Positions 2,210 through 32,373 of a DNA stretch of 33,105 nt are shown here, piece by piece. The translations under genes and the position numbers were made by a program. Location of the stretch: NCBI GenBank assembly GCA_019683695.1, contig JADGHX010000034.1, forward strand, positions 1 to 33,105, in the 5' to 3' direction. Under the pieces are notes generated by a model. That model made no database searches, had not been told where the DNA came from, and saw only the letters and a list, made by a program, of their open reading frames with translations. Origin of the DNA: Steroidobacteraceae bacterium. Lineage in GTDB: Bacteria; Pseudomonadota; Gammaproteobacteria; Steroidobacterales; Steroidobacteraceae. The stretch's first letter is position 1. Every line of letters begins with the position of its first letter.

Positions 2210-2722
2210 ATGGGACGTTACCGAGCACCCGAGCAACCTGGTTCCCAATACATCACACCGGCCGGCGCGCGCCGCCTTCGGCAGGAACTCGACGAGCTCT
2301 GGCGCGTGGAGCGGCCGCGCGTCACCCAGGCGGTCGCGGAGGCCGCCGCCCAGGGCGACCGCTCCGAAAACGCCGAGTACACGTACGGCAAGCGCCGTCT
2401 GCGAGAGATCGACCGGCGCGTGCGCTTCCTGCGCAAGCGGCTCGACGGCATGGTCATCGTCGACAAGCCGCCCTCGGACCCGACGCGCGTGTTCTTCGGT
2501 GCGTGGGTTTCACTCGAGGCGGAGGACGGCACCACCACGCGCTACCGCATCGTGGGGCCGGATGAGTTCGATGCCGCGCCGGGCTACATCAGCATGGATT
2601 CGCCGCTGGCGCGTGCGCTCATGAAGAAGAAGCTGGACGACGAGGTGTCCGTGGAAGTGCCGGGCGGCGTGCGCACCTACACGATCGTGGACGTGCAATA
2701 CGAGCCGAGCGAAGCCGAGTGA
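2210..2722 (+). CDS. greB: Transcription elongation factor GreB
   Basis: 170 residues, the usual GreB length. The N-terminal half is the coiled-coil hairpin that enters the RNA polymerase secondary channel. Its tip and following helix are visible as QGDRSENAEYTYGKRRLRE, with the acidic residues that help the polymerase cleave backtracked RNA. The C-terminal half is the FKBP-like globular domain (WVSLEAEDGTTTRYRIVGPDE, then YISMDSPLARALMKK). GreB rescues stalled transcription complexes. The gene stands alone, divergent from a small unknown gene and convergent with homospermidine synthase. The ribosome site is weak (GAGCG close to the ATG). The repeat array that follows supplies its terminator. 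Confidence 0.96.
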   Translation: MGRYRAPEQPGSQYITPAGARRLRQELDELWRVERPRVTQAVAEAAAQGDRSENAEYTYGKRRLREIDRRVRFLRKRLDGMVIVDKPPSDPTRVFFGAWVSLEAEDGTTTRYRIVGPDEFDAAPGYISMDSPLARALMKKKLDDEVSVEVPGGVRTYTIVDVQYEPSEAE

Positions 2723-2728
2723 GCTTGC

Positions 2729-3131
2729 GCCGGCGGCAACGTCACTCCTTGCAGGCGGCATGAGGCCCGGTCCGCGAAAGCGCCCGCCCCTGAAAGCGGT
2801 TGGAGAACACCCGCCGGCAAGCATCGCGCCGCTTGCCCGACGGAGCGGCGGTTTCGCAAAAGCGCCGCCTCGGGCGGATTCAGGGAATCCAGCCGGCAAG
2901 AGTCACGCCCCTGCCGGCTGAACGAGTCACGATCGCTAAAAAGCGCCAACGAGGTTCAAGGGGATCAGCCGGCAAGAGTCACCTCTTGCCGGCTGGAAAC
3001 GAAGGCACAGTCTCGAAAAAATCGCCGCCCAAACCCGATGCAGCGGCACAGCCGGCAAAAGTCGCGCCTTTTGCCGGCGGGAACGAAGCTACGGTCTCGA
3101 AAAAATCGCCGCAGGCGATTTTTTCCGATTA
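2729..3131. repeat. Tandem array of five ~80-base structured repeat units (locus 1)
   Basis: Five units begin with GCCGGC at 2729, 2813, 2892, 2968 and 3051, spaced 84, 79, 76 and 83 bases. Each has a GC hairpin, then a small hairpin with an A-rich loop, then a spacer. The first hairpin is perfect over 11 bp in unit 4 (GCCGGCAAGAG with CTCTTGCCGGC) and unit 5 (GCCGGCAAAAG with CTTTTGCCGGC), so arm changes are matched. The second hairpin also changes on both sides: CGC-AAAA-GCG, CGCT-AAAA-AGCG, CGA-AAAAA-TCG. Units near 3131 are well kept; those near greB are decayed. The spacings are not multiples of three, so this is not coding. The same unit recurs at 31312-31641. Confidence 0.85.
3099..3125. 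terminator. Bidirectional terminator between greB and homospermidine synthase
   Basis: GAAAAAATCGCC, loop GCA, GGCGATTTTTTC is a perfect 12-bp stem with A and T tracts, able to end transcription from both sides. It lies three bases past the homospermidine synthase stop and is built from the tail of the last repeat unit. Confidence 0.85.
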
Positions 3132-4550
3132 AAAGATGACCCGCACGTTCTTGAACTGCCACGGATCGGACTTGTCGATGTCCTCCGGAAAGAGCCGCTC
3201 GCGCTCGTGCAGCGGCGTCCAGTCCGTGTACTCCCCGTGCATCTTGCCGAGATAGGGCGTGCAGATCTCGAGGTTGCGGCGGAAGTCCATCTCGTCGGGC
3301 TCCACGATGCCGCAGTTCGGATTCTCCATCGCCCAGATCATGCCGGAGAGACACGACACCGTAACCTGCAGGCCCGTCGCGTTGTTGTAGGGCACGAGCC
3401 TGCGGGTCTCCTCGATCGAGAGCTGCGAGCCGTACCAGTACGCGTTCTTCTTGTGCCCGGCGAGAAGCACACCGAGCTCGTCGATGCCCGTCGTGATGTC
3501 GTCCATGAGGATGCGCTGGCGCTCCTGCAGCACGAAATTGCGCCCGGCGAACTCATGCATCGACACGACAGCGGCATCGCAGGGGTGATAGGCGTAGTGA
3601 ACCGTGGGCCGGTACACGACCTGCGCGCCATCGCGCACTGTGAAGTAATCCGAGATGGAGATGGACTCGCCGTGCGTGATGAGGAAGCCGTGGAAGTGGC
3701 CCGCCAGCGGCGTCCAGGTGCGCACGCGGGTAGCCGCGCCCGGCTGCATCAGGTAGATGGCCGACATGCAGCCGAAGTCGTGCCGCTTCCCGTCGCGCGG
3801 GAAGTTGCGCTCGTGCGTGCCCCAGCCCAGCTCACTCGGCTGGGAGCCTTCGCTCACGAAGCCATCGACCGACCAGGTATTCACGAACTCGCCGGGCTCC
3901 TTCGGCTTGTTCGACACCTGCGTGTCGCGCTCGGCGATGTGAATGACCTTCACGCCGAGGCGCCGCGCAAGATCGCCCCAATCCCCGCGGGTGCGCGGGT
4001 TGCCCGCGTCCACACCCGTGTCGGCGGCGATGTTGAGCAGCGCCTGCTTCACGAAGTGAGACACGAGCCCCGGATTCGCACCATGCGTGAGCACAGCGGT
4101 GGGCGCGCGCGCGTTTCCGGGGCGCAGCGCAAGCGCCTCTTCGCGCAGTGCGTAGTTCGTGCGCCGCGCCGCCGGCACTGTGGGATCCGTGTACCCCCCC
4201 GGCCAAGGCTCGATGCAGGTGTCGAGGTACATCGCGCCCTTTTCCCAGCAGAACTTGATGAGCGCGATGCTCGACACGTCTACCGACACGTTCAGCACGA
4301 AGTCCCCCCGACCCACGAGCGGGTTCAGCACGCGGCGATAGTTCTCGCGCGTGAGGGCTTCCTTGATGAACTTGATGCCGAATTTCTCCGCTTCCTCGCG
4401 GCCGCGATCATCCGCGGTCACGATGGTGATGCGCTCCGGTGAGACGCCGATGTGCCTCAGCACGAGGGGCAACGTGCCCTGCCCGATGCTGCCAAAGCCG
4501 ATGAAAATGATGCGCCCGGGAAATTCGACGTAGACCTTGTGATTGCTCAT
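3129..4550 (-). CDS. hss: Homospermidine synthase
   Basis: 473 residues. The enzyme makes sym-homospermidine from two putrescines (or putrescine and spermidine) with NAD as internal redox cofactor, in the cytosol. The Rossmann loop GFGSIGQG is at residues 18-25. Further family stretches are LNVSVDVSS, DTCIEPWPGG, THGANPGLVSHFVKQAL, FVNTWSVDGFVSEG (holding the active-site Trp region), GKNAYWYGSQ-like KKNAYWYGSQLSIEETRR, and a C-terminal DWTPLHERERLFPEDI. The match to the bacterial enzyme characterised in Blastochloris viridis runs over the whole length. The ATG follows GGAG by six bases. The gene appears to be transcribed alone. speA, which feeds putrescine synthesis, is 2 kb away on the other strand; no agmatinase or agmatine deiminase gene is seen here. 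Confidence 0.95.
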   Translation of the reverse strand: MSNHKVYVEFPGRIIFIGFGSIGQGTLPLVLRHIGVSPERITIVTADDRGREEAEKFGIKFIKEALTRENYRRVLNPLVGRGDFVLNVSVDVSSIALIKFCWEKGAMYLDTCIEPWPGGYTDPTVPAARRTNYALREEALALRPGNARAPTAVLTHGANPGLVSHFVKQALLNIAADTGVDAGNPRTRGDWGDLARRLGVKVIHIAERDTQVSNKPKEPGEFVNTWSVDGFVSEGSQPSELGWGTHERNFPRDGKRHDFGCMSAIYLMQPGAATRVRTWTPLAGHFHGFLITHGESISISDYFTVRDGAQVVYRPTVHYAYHPCDAAVVSMHEFAGRNFVLQERQRILMDDITTGIDELGVLLAGHKKNAYWYGSQLSIEETRRLVPYNNATGLQVTVSCLSGMIWAMENPNCGIVEPDEMDFRRNLEICTPYLGKMHGEYTDWTPLHERERLFPEDIDKSDPWQFKNVRVIF

Positions 4551-5711: not shown

Positions 5712-6572
5712 ATGACTTCTTACACCACGCTGATCAAGGTTCCAGAACTGGCGCACCTGCTGGCCACGCACGAGCGAGCCGTCGTCGTTCTCGACTGCCG
5801 CCACGAGCTTGCGCGCCCGGAGTGGAGCGACACTGCATACGCGCAGGGCCACATTCCCACGGCGGTGCAGGCTCACCTGGACCGCGATCTCTCGGGTCCT
5901 GTCACGGCGAGCACCGGACGCCATCCGCTGCCGGAGGTCTCGACGCTCGCCCGCACGTTCGGCGCGTGGGGCATCGGAGAAGGCGTGCAGGTCGTGGCAT
6001 ACGATCAGGGCAACGGCGCCTTCGCCGCTCGCGCCTGGTGGCTGCTGCGCTGGCTCGGGCACCCGGATGTCGCCGTGCTCGATGGCGGCTTCGCCGCCTG
6101 GCAGGAAGCCGGGCTGCCCCTTTCGACCGAGCCCGCGCTAGCGGCGGCTCGCACGTTTGTCCCGCACGTGTCGCAGGCGGCAACGCTCACTGCCGCCGAG
6201 GTTCAGCAAGCGCTCGCGCGTGATGCCATCGTGCTCGTGGATGCTCGCGGTGCCGACCGATTCGCCGGCGAGAACGAAACGCTGGATCCCGTGGCGGGTC
6301 ATGTTCCCGGCGCACGCAACCGGCCGTTTGCCCGAAACGTCGATGCGCGCGGCCGCTTTCTCCCCGCCGACGAGCTGCGCGGCCAGTGGCAGCAGTTTCT
6401 CGGCGGCCGCCCGGCATCCGAGGTCGTCTCGATGTGCGGCTCGGGTGTCACCGCGTGCCACAACGTGCTCTCGCTCGAGATTGCGGGGCTGAAGGGTGCG
6501 CGCCTGTATCCGGGTTCCTGGAGTGAGTGGATCCGCGATCCCGCACGTCCCGTCGCACGAGGCCCGGCATGA
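5712..6572 (+). CDS. Tandem-rhodanese sulfurtransferase (3-mercaptopyruvate type)
   Basis: 286 residues in two rhodanese domains. The first, non-catalytic one (about 1-130) has VVVLDCRHELARPEW and GHIPTAVQAHLDRDLSG, then GVQVVAYDQGNGAFAARAWW. The second (about 150-285) has IVLVDARGADRFAGENE, GHVPGARNRPFARN and the active loop MCGSGVTACHN. The nucleophile is Cys242. CGSGVTA is the loop typical of 3-mercaptopyruvate sulfurtransferases rather than CRKGVT of classic thiosulfate sulfurtransferases, so I favour mercaptopyruvate as donor. The frame is open further upstream, but the ATG at 5712 after GGGAG begins the real domain, and the upstream part covers the antisense GST gene. A terminator-like hairpin follows at 6626. 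Confidence 0.92.
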   Translation: MTSYTTLIKVPELAHLLATHERAVVVLDCRHELARPEWSDTAYAQGHIPTAVQAHLDRDLSGPVTASTGRHPLPEVSTLARTFGAWGIGEGVQVVAYDQGNGAFAARAWWLLRWLGHPDVAVLDGGFAAWQEAGLPLSTEPALAAARTFVPHVSQAATLTAAEVQQALARDAIVLVDARGADRFAGENETLDPVAGHVPGARNRPFARNVDARGRFLPADELRGQWQQFLGGRPASEVVSMCGSGVTACHNVLSLEIAGLKGARLYPGSWSEWIRDPARPVARGPA

Positions 6573-6595
6573 GACTCTTACTCGTCATGCATTTT

Positions 6596-6604
6596 TGCTA
6601 TCTT
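6596..6604 (+). promoter_or_regulatory. Candidate extended -10 promoter for speA
   Basis: TGCTATCTT fits an extended -10 element (TG-N-TATCTT). The -35 region is poor (TTACTC at 6578, spacer 15). A transcript would start near 6611, about 85 bases before the speA start codon and just before the hairpin at 6626. Weak evidence. Confidence 0.35.
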
Positions 6605-6625
6605 CCGCGCCACTCATCGACTCAC

Positions 6626-6667
6626 ATGGCTGGCACCGTTCTTCGGGACCAGCCATTTGTCTTTTGG
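6626..6667 (+). terminator. Terminator-like hairpin between the sulfurtransferase gene and speA
   Basis: ATGGCTGG (6626-6633) pairs perfectly with CCAGCCAT (6649-6656), with an inner CCG-TTCTT-CGG helix, followed by TTGTCTTTT. It can end the sulfurtransferase transcript. If the -10 element at 6599 is real, it also lies inside the speA leader and could act as an attenuator. Confidence 0.65.
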
Positions 6668-6696
6668 CGTTCCGGAATCTGCGACAGGTAGGCGAA

Positions 6697-8676
6697 GTGG
6701 CAGTCGACCCGAAACTCGCACTCAACGGACGGGCGAAGTTCAATCCCGCGAAGCCCTGGCGCGTGGAGGATTCGCTCGAGCTGTACCACGTGAACGCGTG
6801 GGGCAAGGGGTACTTCTCCATCAACGATGCCGGGCATGTCGTCGTGCGGCCGTACACGACCCCCGAGCGGGAGATCGATCTCTATGAAGTGGTGGAGGGG
6901 CTGAAGGCCCGCGATCTCACCACGCCGGTGGTGGTGCGCTTCTCGGACATCCTGGCGCAGCGGTTGCGGCACCTGCACGCCGCCTTCCAGCAGGCCATCA
7001 CCGAGAACGACTACCAGAACCGCTACGCTGCCGTTTACCCCATCAAGGTGAATCAGCAGCGCCTGGTCGTGGAAGAGGTGTATCGCTACGGCAAGGAATT
7101 CGGGTTCGGCCTCGAGGTGGGCTCCAAGCCCGAGCTGCTCGCCGTCATGGCGATGACGGAAAGCGAGCCGGAGCGACTCATCATCTGCAACGGCTTCAAG
7201 GACGACAGCTACATCGAGGCGGTCACCCTGGCCACCAAGCTCGGCCGCACGATCATTCCGGTGGTCGAGAACTTCGATGAGCTGGCGCTCATTCTCAAGC
7301 ACGCTGCGAACTACCGCGTGCGGCCGCGCATCGGGGTGCGTGTGAAGCTCTTCAGCGAGGGCTCCGGGCGCTGGGCGGACTCGGCCGGTGAGAAGTCGAA
7401 GTTCGGCCTGTTCGCCACCGAGATCATGGAGCTATTCAACATATTGAAAGAGCGCAACATGCTCGATTGCCTGCAGCTGGTGCATTGCCACCCCGGCAGC
7501 CAGCTGCAGGACATCCGCCGTGTGAAGGATGCCATCAACGAGCTGGCTCACGTGTACGCGGAGCTGAAGCTCATGGGGGCAGGACTGCAGTACATCGACG
7601 TGGGCGGCGGGCTCGGCGTGGACTACGACGGCAGCGGCACGAACTTCTCGTCTTCCATGAACTACACGCTCAACGAATACGCGAGCGATGTGGTGTATCG
7701 GATCGCGAGTGTGTGCAACGCGCGAGCGATCCCGCATCCGATGATCATCAGCGAATCGGGGCGGGCCATCGCCGCGTACAGCAGCGTGCTCATCTTCAAC
7801 GCGCTCGGCTCCTCGGCGCTCGACCGCTTCAAGGTCTCCGGCGATCCCGCGGCCGATTACACCGGCAGCAAGGAGCTGCCCCAGCCCATCCTCGATCTGT
7901 TCGAGGCGTATCGCTCGGTCTCGGAGCGGCGGCTCGTCGAGTGCTATCACGACACGCTCACTGCGCGCGAGCAGGTGCTCCAGATGTTCAACCTGGGGCT
8001 GCTCTCGCTCGAGTTCCGCGCGCTCGCCGAACGACTCTACTGGGCCACCACCGCGAAGATCCGCGACTGCTGCAGAAAGCTCGACCGTCGCCCGGAGGAG
8101 CTGGATGCGCTCGAGTCCATTCTTTCGGACACCTATTTCTGCAACTTCTCGGTGTTCCAGTCACTGCCGGACAGCTGGGCCATCGACCAGCTCTTCCCGA
8201 TCATGCCGATTCACCGGCTCGACGAGCGCCCCACGCGTACCGGCGTGCTCGCGGACATCACCTGCGACTCGGACGGCAAGATCGATCGCTTCGTCTCGCT
8301 GCGAGATGTCAAACGCGCGCTCGAGCTGCATGAATTGCGTCCCGGCGAGGAGTACTACCTCGCCGCCTTCCTCGTCGGCGCGTATCAGGAAACGCTCGGC
8401 GACCTGCACAACCTGTTCGGCGACACGCATGTCGTGCACATCCGCCTGCACGATGAGGGTGGCTGGTGGATCGAGGAGATCGTCAAGGGAGACACCGCCA
8501 ACAAGGTGCTCGAATACATGGAGTACGACGTTGCGGAGCTCTACCCCGCCCTCGCGCGGGACTGCGAGCGCGCCATTCGCGACGGCCGCATGACCCTCGC
8601 CGAGAGCCAGCTGCTCAAGCGCTTTTACGAGAATGAGCTGAACGGCTACGCCTATCTCGAGCCCGCCGGCGCGTGA
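6697..8676 (+). CDS. speA: Biosynthetic arginine decarboxylase
   Basis: 659 residues from the GTG at 6697, almost the length of the E. coli enzyme. I chose this GTG because AGG repeats lie just upstream and the homologous part starts soon after (PWRVEDSLELYHVNAWGKGY). The frame is open further upstream, but that part contains a hairpin and no family sequence. The PLP lysine is Lys117 in YPIKVNQQR. Other fold-III decarboxylase marks are LEVGSKPELLAV, GEKSKFGLF, CHPGSQLQDI, DVGGGLGVDYDG, ISESGRAIAAYSSV and the C-terminal DITCDSDGKID and AYQETLGDLHNLFGDTH. It makes agmatine from arginine, the first step to putrescine. Its likely downstream partner here is the homospermidine synthase at 3129-4550. 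Confidence 0.96.
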   Translation: MAVDPKLALNGRAKFNPAKPWRVEDSLELYHVNAWGKGYFSINDAGHVVVRPYTTPEREIDLYEVVEGLKARDLTTPVVVRFSDILAQRLRHLHAAFQQAITENDYQNRYAAVYPIKVNQQRLVVEEVYRYGKEFGFGLEVGSKPELLAVMAMTESEPERLIICNGFKDDSYIEAVTLATKLGRTIIPVVENFDELALILKHAANYRVRPRIGVRVKLFSEGSGRWADSAGEKSKFGLFATEIMELFNILKERNMLDCLQLVHCHPGSQLQDIRRVKDAINELAHVYAELKLMGAGLQYIDVGGGLGVDYDGSGTNFSSSMNYTLNEYASDVVYRIASVCNARAIPHPMIISESGRAIAAYSSVLIFNALGSSALDRFKVSGDPAADYTGSKELPQPILDLFEAYRSVSERRLVECYHDTLTAREQVLQMFNLGLLSLEFRALAERLYWATTAKIRDCCRKLDRRPEELDALESILSDTYFCNFSVFQSLPDSWAIDQLFPIMPIHRLDERPTRTGVLADITCDSDGKIDRFVSLRDVKRALELHELRPGEEYYLAAFLVGAYQETLGDLHNLFGDTHVVHIRLHDEGGWWIEEIVKGDTANKVLEYMEYDVAELYPALARDCERAIRDGRMTLAESQLLKRFYENELNGYAYLEPAGA

Positions 8677-18046: not shown

Positions 18047-18060
18047 GCGCGCACGCGCGC

Positions 18061-18131
18061 CCGAAAAAATCGGCGCCCGGAACCCGATACGCGACCAGTT
18101 GCCGAGCGCCGCGCCTTCGGCCGATCGGCAA
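18061..18131. repeat. Probable diverged single copy of the 80-base repeat
   Basis: CCGA-AAAAA-TCGG, then CGCCCGGAACCCGATACGCG, then TTGCCGA...TCGGCAA (18099-18131, 7-bp stem) repeats the order seen in the arrays at 2729 and 31312: A-loop hairpin, CGCC...AACCCGATGC spacer, GC hairpin. Base identity is partial, so relation is likely but not sure. Confidence 0.45.
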
Positions 18132-30287: not shown

Positions 30288-31232
30288 TCAGGACTGTGTC
30301 GAAGCGCGCCGCGCGAGCGTCCGCGACGCGTTGCCCCGCCCGGTTGGCGGCGCGTTGACGGTCACGTGTTCGTCACGAACCGTGCGCAGCGTTTCCCAGG
30401 CGAGCATGGCGCGTTTGCGGTCCTCACCCCAGCGATAGCCTCCCAGCCCGCCGCTCTTGCGTAACACGTGATGACAAGGAATGAGCCAGGCCACCGGGTT
30501 CGCACCAACCGCGCCGCCCACTGCGCGCATGCCGTGTTGAGCGCCGATGGCAGCGGCGAGCTCGCTGTAGCTTGTGCAGTCCCGCGCGCCCAGATCGAGG
30601 AGTGCTTGCCACACCTTCAGCTGAAAGTTGGTGCCCGCCACGTGTATCCGGAGCGGAGCGCGCGCACGACCAGGCCCACCCCAGATGCGCAACGCCATGG
30701 CGCGGGCGGCATCATCGTCTCGCTCGAACGTGGCGCGCGGCCATTGCGCCCGAAGCTCCGCGACTGCAGCGGTATCGCCGGCAGGTTCAACGAACGCCAG
30801 ATGGGAAAGCCCACGCGGGGTCGTTGCGAAGAGCGCCCGGCCGAACGGCGTGTTGCTGAAGCCGTAGCGGAGGGTGGTCCCGAGCCCCTGGGCCTTGATC
30901 TCGCCCGGCGTCATCGCCTCCACGCTCACGATGAGATCATGCAGCCGGCCCGGCCCTGACAATCCCACGTGCAGAGCCGCCTCCAGCACGGAGCTTTGCC
31001 CGACCAGCGCGGCGCGCGCGGCGGCGCCAGTGACCGCTGCGAGATACTGCTTCGGGGTGACACCCGCCCAGCGGCGGAAGAGCCGATTGAAGTGAAACTC
31101 CGAGAGATTCACGTGGGCGGCGACGCTTTCCAGGCGCGGCTGCTCGCGGAAGTGCTGATCGATGTAGCGAATGGCGCGGGCGATGCGGCCGAAGTCGCGG
31201 CTGTCGACGAAGCTGTCGGGGAGGACTTGCAT
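30288..31232 (-). CDS. AraC-type regulator fused to O6-methylguanine-DNA methyltransferase (Ada-like)
   Basis: 314 residues. Residues about 15-115 are an AraC-type double helix-turn-helix (RLESVAAHVNLSEFHFNRLF, RWAGVTPKQYLAAV). Residues about 120-285 are the methyltransferase: RALFATTPRGLSHLAF, then FQLKVWQALLDLG, SYSELAAAIG, and the active site NPVAWLIPCHHVLRKSGG with acceptor Cys253. The usual PCHRV is PCHHV here. E. coli Ada has an extra N-terminal domain whose zinc-bound cysteine takes methyl groups from phosphotriesters and switches on the regulon; it is absent. So this protein can repair O6-methylguanine, but its regulatory trigger must differ. The tail after 290 is basic and disordered-looking. 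Confidence 0.93.
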   Translation of the reverse strand: MQVLPDSFVDSRDFGRIARAIRYIDQHFREQPRLESVAAHVNLSEFHFNRLFRRWAGVTPKQYLAAVTGAAARAALVGQSSVLEAALHVGLSGPGRLHDLIVSVEAMTPGEIKAQGLGTTLRYGFSNTPFGRALFATTPRGLSHLAFVEPAGDTAAVAELRAQWPRATFERDDDAARAMALRIWGGPGRARAPLRIHVAGTNFQLKVWQALLDLGARDCTSYSELAAAIGAQHGMRAVGGAVGANPVAWLIPCHHVLRKSGGLGGYRWGEDRKRAMLAWETLRTVRDEHVTVNAPPTGRGNASRTLARRASTQS

Positions 31233-31311: not shown

Positions 31312-31641
31312 GGGCAGGCGGAAGCTCTGGCGTTCCTGAAAAACAGGCGCTCGACCGGGTGTCATGACGACCTTGCCCGCTCGCAGCGGAGCCGGTGAGT
31401 TTCACCTCCTTGCCGGGCGAAGCCAGAAGGATTTCAAAAAAAATGCCCGAGCGACCCGCGGTGATGCAGCCGGCAACGGTCGCGCCTCTTGCGGGCGGAA
31501 ACGAAGCAGCGTCTCGAAAAAATTGCGCCGAAGCCGATGCAGTGACACAGCCGGCAAACGGTCGCGCCTTTTTCCGGCGGAAGCGAAGGCAGGATCTGGA
31601 AGAAATTGTCTCAGGCCATTCTTTCCAATGGACAATAGCGT
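31312..31641. repeat. Second array of the ~80-base structured repeat (locus 2)
   Basis: Units start at 31391, 31469 and 31550 (spaced 78 and 81), with a decayed one before them from about 31312. The stretch GATGCAGTGACACAGCCGGC (31536-31555) matches GATGCAGCGGCACAGCCGGC at locus 1, and GTCGCGCC and CTCGAAAAAAT are shared too. The A-loop hairpin recurs as CCTG-AAAAA-CAGG near 31335. GC hairpins are less perfect than at locus 1. The array fills the gap between the divergent Ada-like gene and the esterase-like gene, so promoters of both must lie in or beside it. Confidence 0.75.
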
Positions 31642-32373
31642 ATGCAGAAGGAAGCATGGCGCTGGAACAGTACGCTCGTGTCCGGACCCGGCCGCGTGGT
31701 GCGCTGGGGCCATTTCGGCGCACCGGTGCTCATCTTTCCGAGCGCGGGAGGCGACTGCGAAGAGATCGAGCGGTATCAGCTCATTCACGCGATGCGTGAG
31801 CTGATCGAGCACGGACGCATCAAGGTGTACTCGGTGGACGGCCTCGCCGCACGCGCCTGGCTTTGCGGCACATACACGCCGGACCAGTGCGCGCGCGCAC
31901 AAGCTGCGTACGACGCATTCATTCACGATGAAGTCGTGCCGATCATCCGCCGCGATTGCCAAAGCGACAGCATCGAGATCCTGACAGCAGGTGTTGCCCT
32001 GGGCGGCTGCGCGGCGGTGACCAGCCTGTGTGCTCACCCCAGCGTCTTTCGCAAAGCCATCGCAATCAGCGGAATTTTCGATCTCTCAAAATACGTGCGA
32101 GGCGGCCTCACACCGGAGCTGCGCCGCGTGCTTCCCGTGCACTATGTGCAGGATCTGGCCGAGGGCGTGCAGCTCGACACGCTTCGCCGGCGGCTCGTCC
32201 TGCTCGCAACCGGAGAAGGCGAATACGAATCACCGGAAGAGTCCGAGAGGCTCGCGGGCGTGCTGCTCGCGCGCGGCGTGCCGTGCCATCTGGAGCTGCT
32301 GGGCCCCGAGCACGCCCATTCCTGGAACACCTGGCGGAAAGTGCTGCCCCGCTACCTCGCGGCGCATGCGTAG
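31642..32373 (+). CDS. Esterase-fold protein lacking the catalytic serine
   Basis: 243 residues of an alpha/beta-hydrolase like the COG4947 esterase group: GRVVRWGHFGAPVLIFPSAGG, HGRIKVYSVDGLAARAW, HDEVVPIIRRDC, then the nucleophile elbow. There the sequence is TAGVALGGCAAV, so Ala119 replaces the Ser expected in GxSxG (codon GCC instead of a serine codon). The His region EHAHSWNTWRKVLPRYL is kept. The protein is thus probably not a hydrolase and may bind a ligand, or it uses other residues. There is no signal peptide. The gene starts right at the end of the repeat array with only a poor ribosome site (GGA). Confidence 0.85.
   Translation: MQKEAWRWNSTLVSGPGRVVRWGHFGAPVLIFPSAGGDCEEIERYQLIHAMRELIEHGRIKVYSVDGLAARAWLCGTYTPDQCARAQAAYDAFIHDEVVPIIRRDCQSDSIEILTAGVALGGCAAVTSLCAHPSVFRKAIAISGIFDLSKYVRGGLTPELRRVLPVHYVQDLAEGVQLDTLRRRLVLLATGEGEYESPEESERLAGVLLARGVPCHLELLGPEHAHSWNTWRKVLPRYLAAHA

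Follow-up and report, generated by a model that had tools for sequence, protein, structure and literature searches.

A dispersed, REP-like palindromic element with two hairpins and defined ends in Steroidobacteraceae

Introduction

The window, i.e. the complete stretch of 33,105 nt analysed here, holds an array of tandem hairpin units between greB (2210-2722, plus strand, stop codon at 2722) and a convergent gene (3129-4550, minus strand). The question was whether these units are a local repeat, a functional RNA or part of a wider family. The locus is one site of a lineage-specific, dispersed, REP-like mobile palindromic element with two hairpins and defined ends, which occupies dozens of sites in some soil bacteria, often exactly at gene ends. 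Mobility is read from the comparison of empty, inherited and replaced sites, not from observed movement.

Results

Structure of the array

The five successive units which an earlier note had described between the two genes are real. They follow each other at a spacing of 76-84 nt within 2729-3132, starting at about 2735, 2811-2813, 2890, 2966 and 3049 (Table 1). Every unit had been credited with a GC hairpin (H1), yet three units rather than five keep this first stem: it is intact in unit 4 (AAGAG/CTCTT) and unit 5 (AAAAG/CTTTT), shorter in unit 2 (AAGC/GCTT), interrupted by two mismatches in unit 3 (AAGAG opposite CCCCT) and not intact in unit 1. The hairpin described with an A-rich loop was misread: the array has stems of just 3-4 bp there (CGC/GCG, CGCT/AGCG, CGA/TCG), and the second hairpin kept by the family (H2) is a longer palindrome, whose left arm contains the A-run. 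A whole H2 is found in the last unit only, where 3099-3110 pairs with 3114-3125 in 12 of 12 positions.

Folding of 2723-3135 gave -185.2 kcal/mol, compared to -163.4 kcal/mol (SD 5.9) for shuffled sequences, of which 1 in 100 was equally low. Unit 5 folded alone forms two perfect hairpins, H1 and H2, with z = -4.1 on either strand. The proposed decay towards greB was borne out by the profile scores, which increase from unit to unit in the opposite direction and reach 77.4 bits in unit 5. Unit 1 shares 43-55% identity with 14 other units of the host genome. Taken alone, the pairing changes among these five units are little proof of a kept fold; the family-wide tests given below carry that point.

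The convergent gene had been named hss, which is unconfirmed: its product is saccharopine-dehydrogenase-like according to Pfam and there was no NCBIfam match. An arginine-decarboxylase gene is located nearby (6496-8676), which fits a polyamine role for the saccharopine-dehydrogenase-like gene without proving it.

Table 1. Coordinates of the element units and their parts in the window.
Feature	Position	Strand	Evidence
Unit 1, most decayed; H1 broken, A-run a remnant of the H2 left arm	2729-2810	+	Profile 7.4 bits at 2735-2778
Unit 2, decayed; H1 stem GGCAAGC/GCTTGCC kept	2811-2888	+	Profile 10.8 bits
Unit 3, decayed; H1 with two mismatches	2889-2964	+	Profile 25.9 bits; covariance model E 0.023
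Unit 4; perfect 13-bp H1 (2966-2978 with 2983-2995), H2 left arm only	2965-3048	+	Profile 54.6 bits; E 5.1e-6
Unit 5, complete element	3049-3132	+	R2 match 3046-3132, 99.5 bits, E 1.7e-20 (copy belonged to the R2 training set)
H1 of unit 5; stem 3051-3061/3068-3078, loop TCGCGC	3051-3078	+	Inverted-repeat search, folding
Tag GGTCTC before H2 of unit 5 (family consensus TGTCC/T)	3093-3098	+	Sequence
H2 of unit 5, GAAAAAATCGCC/GGCGATTTTTTC, loop GCA; possible bidirectional terminator	3099-3125	+	Folding; terminator scan negative
Tail CGATTAA of unit 5	3126-3132	+	Contains TTA (3129-3131), the minus-strand gene's stop codon TAA
Second family locus, two units	31467-31632	+	R2 E 8.6e-5 and 1.1e-12
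Weak remnant between ORFs; A-run and joint sequence	18060-18088	+	E 2.0e-4; profile E 0.38

Copies in the host genome and in relatives

A covariance model (R2) covering both hairpins was built from 37 sequences, 10 of them from the host genome, with 22 base pairs. A search of the genome and its relatives with such a model, which the earlier note had proposed, returned many other copies with paired changes beyond the controls. In the host genome, R2 gave 69 matches at E ≤ 1 and 33 at E ≤ 0.001, the E-values being rough due to a short calibration; values away from the array were as low as 5e-21. BLAST with the array as query gave 17 matches in the same genome, whereby the array itself and reverse readings of its own palindrome are counted. 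A second locus within the window (Table 1) is situated between divergent genes, one Ada-like (30288-31232, minus strand) and one esterase-like (31642-32373, plus strand). It lies in the leader of the latter, unlike most copies.

Scanning named genomes for the H1 pattern yielded 35 loci in 13 assemblies, namely metagenome-assembled genomes titled Gammaproteobacteria, Proteobacteria or Steroidobacteraceae as well as Steroidobacter agaridevorans and Peristeroidobacter soli. R2 found 4-92 matches per genome in all 13 of these, which had been chosen for H1 and in which reverse palindrome readings can count, and matches in 17 of 31 genomes from the genus of one carrier, where reverse H1 readings can count as well. 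Under a strict filter, by which weak copies are lost, 3 of 59 relatives had matches, namely the host, G006 and G025. By the same filter, 37 genomes in a sample of 200 from the family had matches, the host among them and 8 of 25 genera being covered, and in a class sample of 274 genomes the host was the only one. Identical contig positions obtained for the Steroidobacter genome (G064) and for G183, a genome of the host's own family, place the host in Steroidobacteraceae. No element was found on plasmids by blastn, or in viral contigs with the exact H1 pattern. Rfam had no match in the window at the gathering threshold; at E ≤ 1, four loci gave a tRNA that adjoins one copy and a sub-threshold match to anti-hemB, which lies outside the element. 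The copies of relatives were taken from the best-scoring end of ranked lists; thus, decayed copies are under-sampled and intact stems are favoured.

Anatomy of the element

In order, the unit of about 85 nt comprises H1, with the loop YCRCGC on the stem GCCGGCAAAAG, a spacer with TGTCC/T at its end, the sequence-variable H2 and the tail CCAATNRACTAR. Counts refer to 236 distinct copies after removal of identical element sequences, and copies below the stem-score limit (19 for H1, 32 for H2) were left out. Besides GCCGGCAAAAG, variants of the H1 stem occur, and its loop is mostly YCRCGC. H2 was scored in 194 cases. It is preceded by the tag GTCC or GTCT in 151, with T as the base 5' of this tag in 120 of the 151 and C in 11. 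The stem measures 11-12 bp in 169/194, the outer pair is G-C in 178 and the second pair C-G in 123; GCA (87/194) and TTCCT (46/194) are the commonest loops and GAA is rare (2/194). After the outer pair, the sequence continues with CAAT in 103/194 or CCAT in 26/194, hence CCAAT or CCCAT when the outer base is included. In 146 anchorable copies of 190, the consensus past the tail is N-R-A-C-T-A-R, and the triplets at this end were CTA (64), TCA (16) and TTA (11). The element itself, therefore, seems to bring CTA, which reads TAG on the other strand; this far-end CTA/TAG is located some 7-8 nt away from the H2 stem.

In 50 of 204 H2 fits, the right arm carries one additional base behind pair three or four; such a recurrent bulge may be a recognised feature. 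RNAalifold alone recovered H1 and missed H2, probably because H2 varies in sequence and length. The earlier claim that the fold and not the sequence is kept holds as far as the stems pair, but conservation of the H1 loop, the GTCY tag and the tail is at the sequence level. Ahead of several copies, a second short palindromic motif (approximately GCCTGTCGGACTNGCCGAC) is present, just upstream in L156-L159 of genome G061 and also at L190 in G065; it may belong to another dispersed repeat family.

Paired changes in the stems

Paired stem changes were well above the controls across the family. In the 37-row alignment, 13 pairs had changes on both sides, compared to 6.0 in shuffles, and 55 cells were changed on both sides, compared to 14.3; by either measure, none of 500 shuffles was as high, and the covariation measures drop when the partners are slid. 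In an arm-swap test, right arms were exchanged within the same genome, stem length and loop length. Of 182 H1 stems, 171 are perfect as they stand; after swapping, the mean over 500 trials was 51.9 and the highest value 65. For H2, 91 of 104 stems are perfect, with 36.1 on average and 51 at most after swapping. This set excludes bulged stems, other stem lengths and stems alone in their class, and its copies are not mutually independent. Mismatches on the element strand were more often G-T than A-C in H2 (14 vs. 4, p = 0.03) and, less clearly, in H1 (11 vs. 5, p = 0.21), whereby copies are again not independent.

Stems were further compared, in register, between copies at the same site in two genomes; 5 of 26 site pairs were left out for H1 and 12 of 26 for H2. 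H1 had 25 both-sided changes and no other among 231 cells (21 pairs), and H2 had 29 both-sided and four one-sided changes among 165 cells (14 pairs). As half-way states are few, replacement or arm-to-arm correction fits at least as well as slow compensation, and turnover of copies may be a source of the paired differences as well as selection.

Position relative to genes

The gene context was determined with a home-made ORF caller using third-position GC, which flagged nine copies as inside an ORF. In three relatives with 63 copies altogether, 47 copies have the 3' end of an opposing gene on their tail side, 39 of them within -4 to +7 nt of its stop codon; for the H1 side, the respective numbers are 35 and 9. 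The signal is weaker in the host genome, where 8 of 18 copies have a 3' end on the tail side and 5 are within -4 to +7 nt. Convergent gaps harbour 26 of the 63 copies and divergent gaps five, the orientation to the genes being mixed. At four loci (L145, L183, L195, L161), the element fills almost the entire convergent gap, and the CTA of the tail (TAG on the opposite strand) is often the stop codon of the neighbouring gene.

Copies also occur between the genes of essential operons, which we presume from their peptides to be sucC-sucD in two genomes (L154, L189) and, in the host, atpD-atpC (L032) and tuf-rpsJ (L033). The copy between the first two genes is common to both genomes with a similarity of 0.88 (top 0.2%) and, judged by this likeness, is clearly inherited in place. 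Further copies lie beside tRNA genes, one of these being recognised by Rfam and the others by eye.

Empty, inherited and replaced sites

At a site which we take to be between gspG- and gspH-like genes (L217), five genomes have 28-48 nt compared to 205-225 nt with two copies in the query genome; a sixth (G062) has 94 nt compared to 262. Three of the five short sequences were read, of which two are without trace of the element and the third holds a half element, i.e. the stop codon, the tail and one H2 arm as far as the loop. Relatives without a recognisable copy were also found for L202 (two genomes read) and L211 (several), and the flanking genes are kept at such element-free sites. Searching 334 loci outside recognised copies for half elements gave two matches, of which one retains the palindrome and the other, at L306, is clear. 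At this locus (L306:1472-1501, genome G061, minus strand), the stop codon, the tail and one H2 arm stand alone and end at the H2 loop; it is a possible excision or deletion scar. As regards the features of a MITE, i.e. terminal inverted repeats and a target-site duplication, the two element ends differ and no duplication was evident by eye at the few sites read.

The same gap is occupied in two genomes in 28 copy pairs, with masked flanks 71-88% identical. Both copies point the same way in 25 of these; their distance to the tail-side flank agrees within 9 nt and that on the H1 side often differs. The three opposite pairs all involve L194 (L194:1592-1669), compared to L180, L227 and L149, as if this copy had arrived independently or been inverted. 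Similarity at shared sites, for which the best match was used at multi-copy loci and the pairs are not independent, was in the top 5% for the genome pair in 9 of 28 (7 of 25 same-way pairs and two with L194), outside of it in 19 and above the mean in 21. Several pairs were no more similar than random copies; in one of them (L145/L213), the copies were less similar (0.682) than random pairs (0.748), yet the masked flanks are 87.0% identical. From this mix of high and random-level similarity, some copies are inherited in place and others look replaced. Mean copy similarity was 0.617-0.792 within a genome and 0.679 between genomes. Copies of one genome thus resemble each other little more than copies of different genomes do, and there is no evident sign of recent bursts.

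Order of units within arrays

In many arrays, the older units, situated on the H1 side, lack the right arm of H2, and the following copy begins shortly behind the loop of the older H2. An exception is L217, whose doubled copy retains both H2 palindromes. New copies had been suggested to arise at one end. The last unit is indeed the better one in 6 of 7 arrays of the host genome, but in 14 of 19 overall (two-sided p = 0.064); the polar order is a tendency, not a rule. Unit 5 of the window is closer to units on two other contigs (C205_u1-u3, C28_u5; 92-95% identity) than to the adjacent unit 4 (84%). This favours an arrival from elsewhere, though the likeness could also be due to unit 5 being the least decayed or unit 4 being older. 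At one tRNA site in two genomes (L176, L226), the terminal H2 with the rare GAA loop is common to both, and the first has an extra H1 unit before it.

Discussion

Explanations for the element

We consider it probable that this is a non-autonomous, REP-like mobile element of about 85 nt which belongs to Steroidobacteraceae and is spread in trans by an enzyme other than a RAYT reading the H1/H2 fold. Such an enzyme would recognise the single-stranded fold by the kept loop YCRCGC, the kept tag and tail and stems which vary but stay paired, and would join or replace copies at the H2 palindrome or close to it. On this reading, the array in the window would be a record of successive arrivals at one seat by the saccharopine-dehydrogenase-like gene, the oldest towards greB, and an effect on mRNA ends, if any, would be secondary. 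A local tandem repeat made by slippage, with chance hairpins elsewhere, was refuted by the genome-wide search. This origin, for which the three units of contig C205 with 97-98% identity could be cited, is extremely improbable given E-values down to 5e-21 elsewhere in the genome, a unit 5 nearer to other loci than to the adjacent unit 4, and a loop, tag and tail kept in 236 distinct copies from many genomes. An element that mainly acts as RNA, i.e. as a 3'-end terminator or mRNA stabiliser selected on its transcript fold and dispersed to a minor extent, is unlikely. Placement at stop codons, the 26 of 63 copies in convergent gaps, the paired stems and the G-T excess among H2 mismatches, expected if the fold of one strand is kept, agree with it, as does a T-run of at least five in 4 of 5 scored H2 of the host genome. 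Over all scored H2, however, such a T-run follows just 36 of 194, and a terminator scan of 2600-3300 gave no sites. The bidirectional terminator proposed for the last unit is plausible at this locus (A6/T6) but was not found by the scan, and its T-run is not kept in the family. Copies within operons and beside a tRNA gene, the mixed orientation to genes, the patchy presence and relatives with empty sites but kept genes argue against an RNA role as well. Pairing might instead be due to upkeep of palindromes at the DNA level (template switching, arm conversion) or to replacement by a perfect copy, not to selection on structure. Such upkeep or replacement would account for why the stems pair and does not conflict with a mobile element; we consider it less likely than not. 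It agrees with unlike copies at many shared sites and with the stems at these sites, where 54 of 396 cells differ on both sides and still pair, compared to four that differ on one side. The G-T over A-C mismatches, however, point to one strand, and the one-base bulge in about a quarter of the H2 right arms (50/204) should be erased by arm correction.

The remaining alternative is a common REP/BIME family whose RAYT transposase has since been lost. The placement at gene ends is of the kind described for REPs in PMC3733652 (Di Nocera et al. 2013), which also states that REPtrons may be missing through deletion; both would suit a lost RAYT. The domain of RAYTs is Y1_Tnp (PF01797), and the transposase search covered this domain only. 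Y1_Tnp was absent from the whole host genome and from 15 of 15 other carriers, with 5 of 14 control genomes being positive. The earlier statement that the window has no RAYT thus extends to these 16 genomes. Among the 200 family genomes, Y1_Tnp was present in 37; these include 6 of 37 element carriers, which speaks for a lost RAYT, but also 31 of 163 non-carriers (Fisher's Exact Test, p = 0.82). None of the six genomes with the highest element count in this sample has the domain, the element is not adjacent to any of three Y1 loci examined, and the tag before the stem is GTCY and not GTAG. Altogether, a vanished RAYT is very unlikely. Genes between two copies 0.25-4 kb apart were examined in six cases. 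Those recognised are presumably GshB, PurA, YrdC and SURF1, i.e. housekeeping, so that no autonomous parent was seen.

A narrower form of the mobile-element reading, which we put forward tentatively and judge somewhat doubtful, is spread by homing: the RAYT-free enzyme would read the fold of one strand and set new copies in or at older H2 palindromes and at TAG-like gene ends, from which polar arrays and turnover of sites would follow. If true, homing would represent a mobilisation mechanism of a new kind, by which the CGTC REPs without a transposase could be explained as well. The family is a tractable case, with up to 92 matches in a genome of 2.7 Mb, carriers such as Steroidobacter agaridevorans SA29-B and Peristeroidobacter soli JW-3, related genomes with inherited, replaced and empty sites and a hint that the fold of one strand is kept. 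In addition, copy turnover may pile up paired stem changes, which matters wherever covariation is read as proof of RNA function.

Comparison with known palindromic repeats

A literature search by lineage name and related terms, covering titles and abstract openings and few of the subscription journals, gave no description of the element. We presume that the element is not an integron attC site, a CRISPR repeat or an IS200/IS605 end. Stem-loop families have been surveyed in PMC2267715. According to PMC3733652, REPs are of a GTAG and a CGTC type, REPs between convergent genes are mostly ≤ 20 bp from gene ends, and GTAG termini often provide a TAG stop codon. With GTAG REPs and BIMEs, which have a RAYT, the element shares the palindromes, the dispersal, the position at gene ends and a TAG end which is often the neighbour's stop codon. 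It differs by the lack of GTAG at the stem foot (its tag is GTCY), by H1 and H2 being different sequences and by the lack of a RAYT-type gene in the host and 15 other carriers. The NIMEs of Neisseria are arrays of short palindromes in intergenic DNA as well. Their sequences are different, however, and PMC3898611 gives them as dRS3 of 20 bp with RS elements of 30-160 bp, occurring in dRS3 arrays; a phage integrase is said to use dRS3, whereas nothing of the kind is known for the present element.

The layout had been described as unlike common REP/BIME elements; this is true of the H1/H2 pair and of the missing GTAG at the stem, but the layout of H2 resembles CGTC-tagged REPs. For these, PMC3733652 lists a CGTC, TGTC or CCTC tag, a stem of 8-9 bp almost always starting with A-T, a loop of 4-5, a CCA tail, predominantly head-to-head dimers and no known transposase. 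The stem of H2 is 11-12 bp long with GCA or TTCCT loops, its first pairs are mostly G-C (outer pair 178/194), it is joined in fixed order to an unrelated H1 in head-to-tail arrays, and the element was found in one gammaproteobacterial family. The transposase-less CGTC-tagged REPs, including dRS3, are the nearest known systems, of which the element is at most a candidate member: both have an unpaired tag directly before the stem, of which TGTC is a stated variant, and a CCA-type tail after it, both are intergenic, adjoin gene 3' ends and are heterogeneous in sequence within families, and dRS3 likewise occurs mostly in large clusters.
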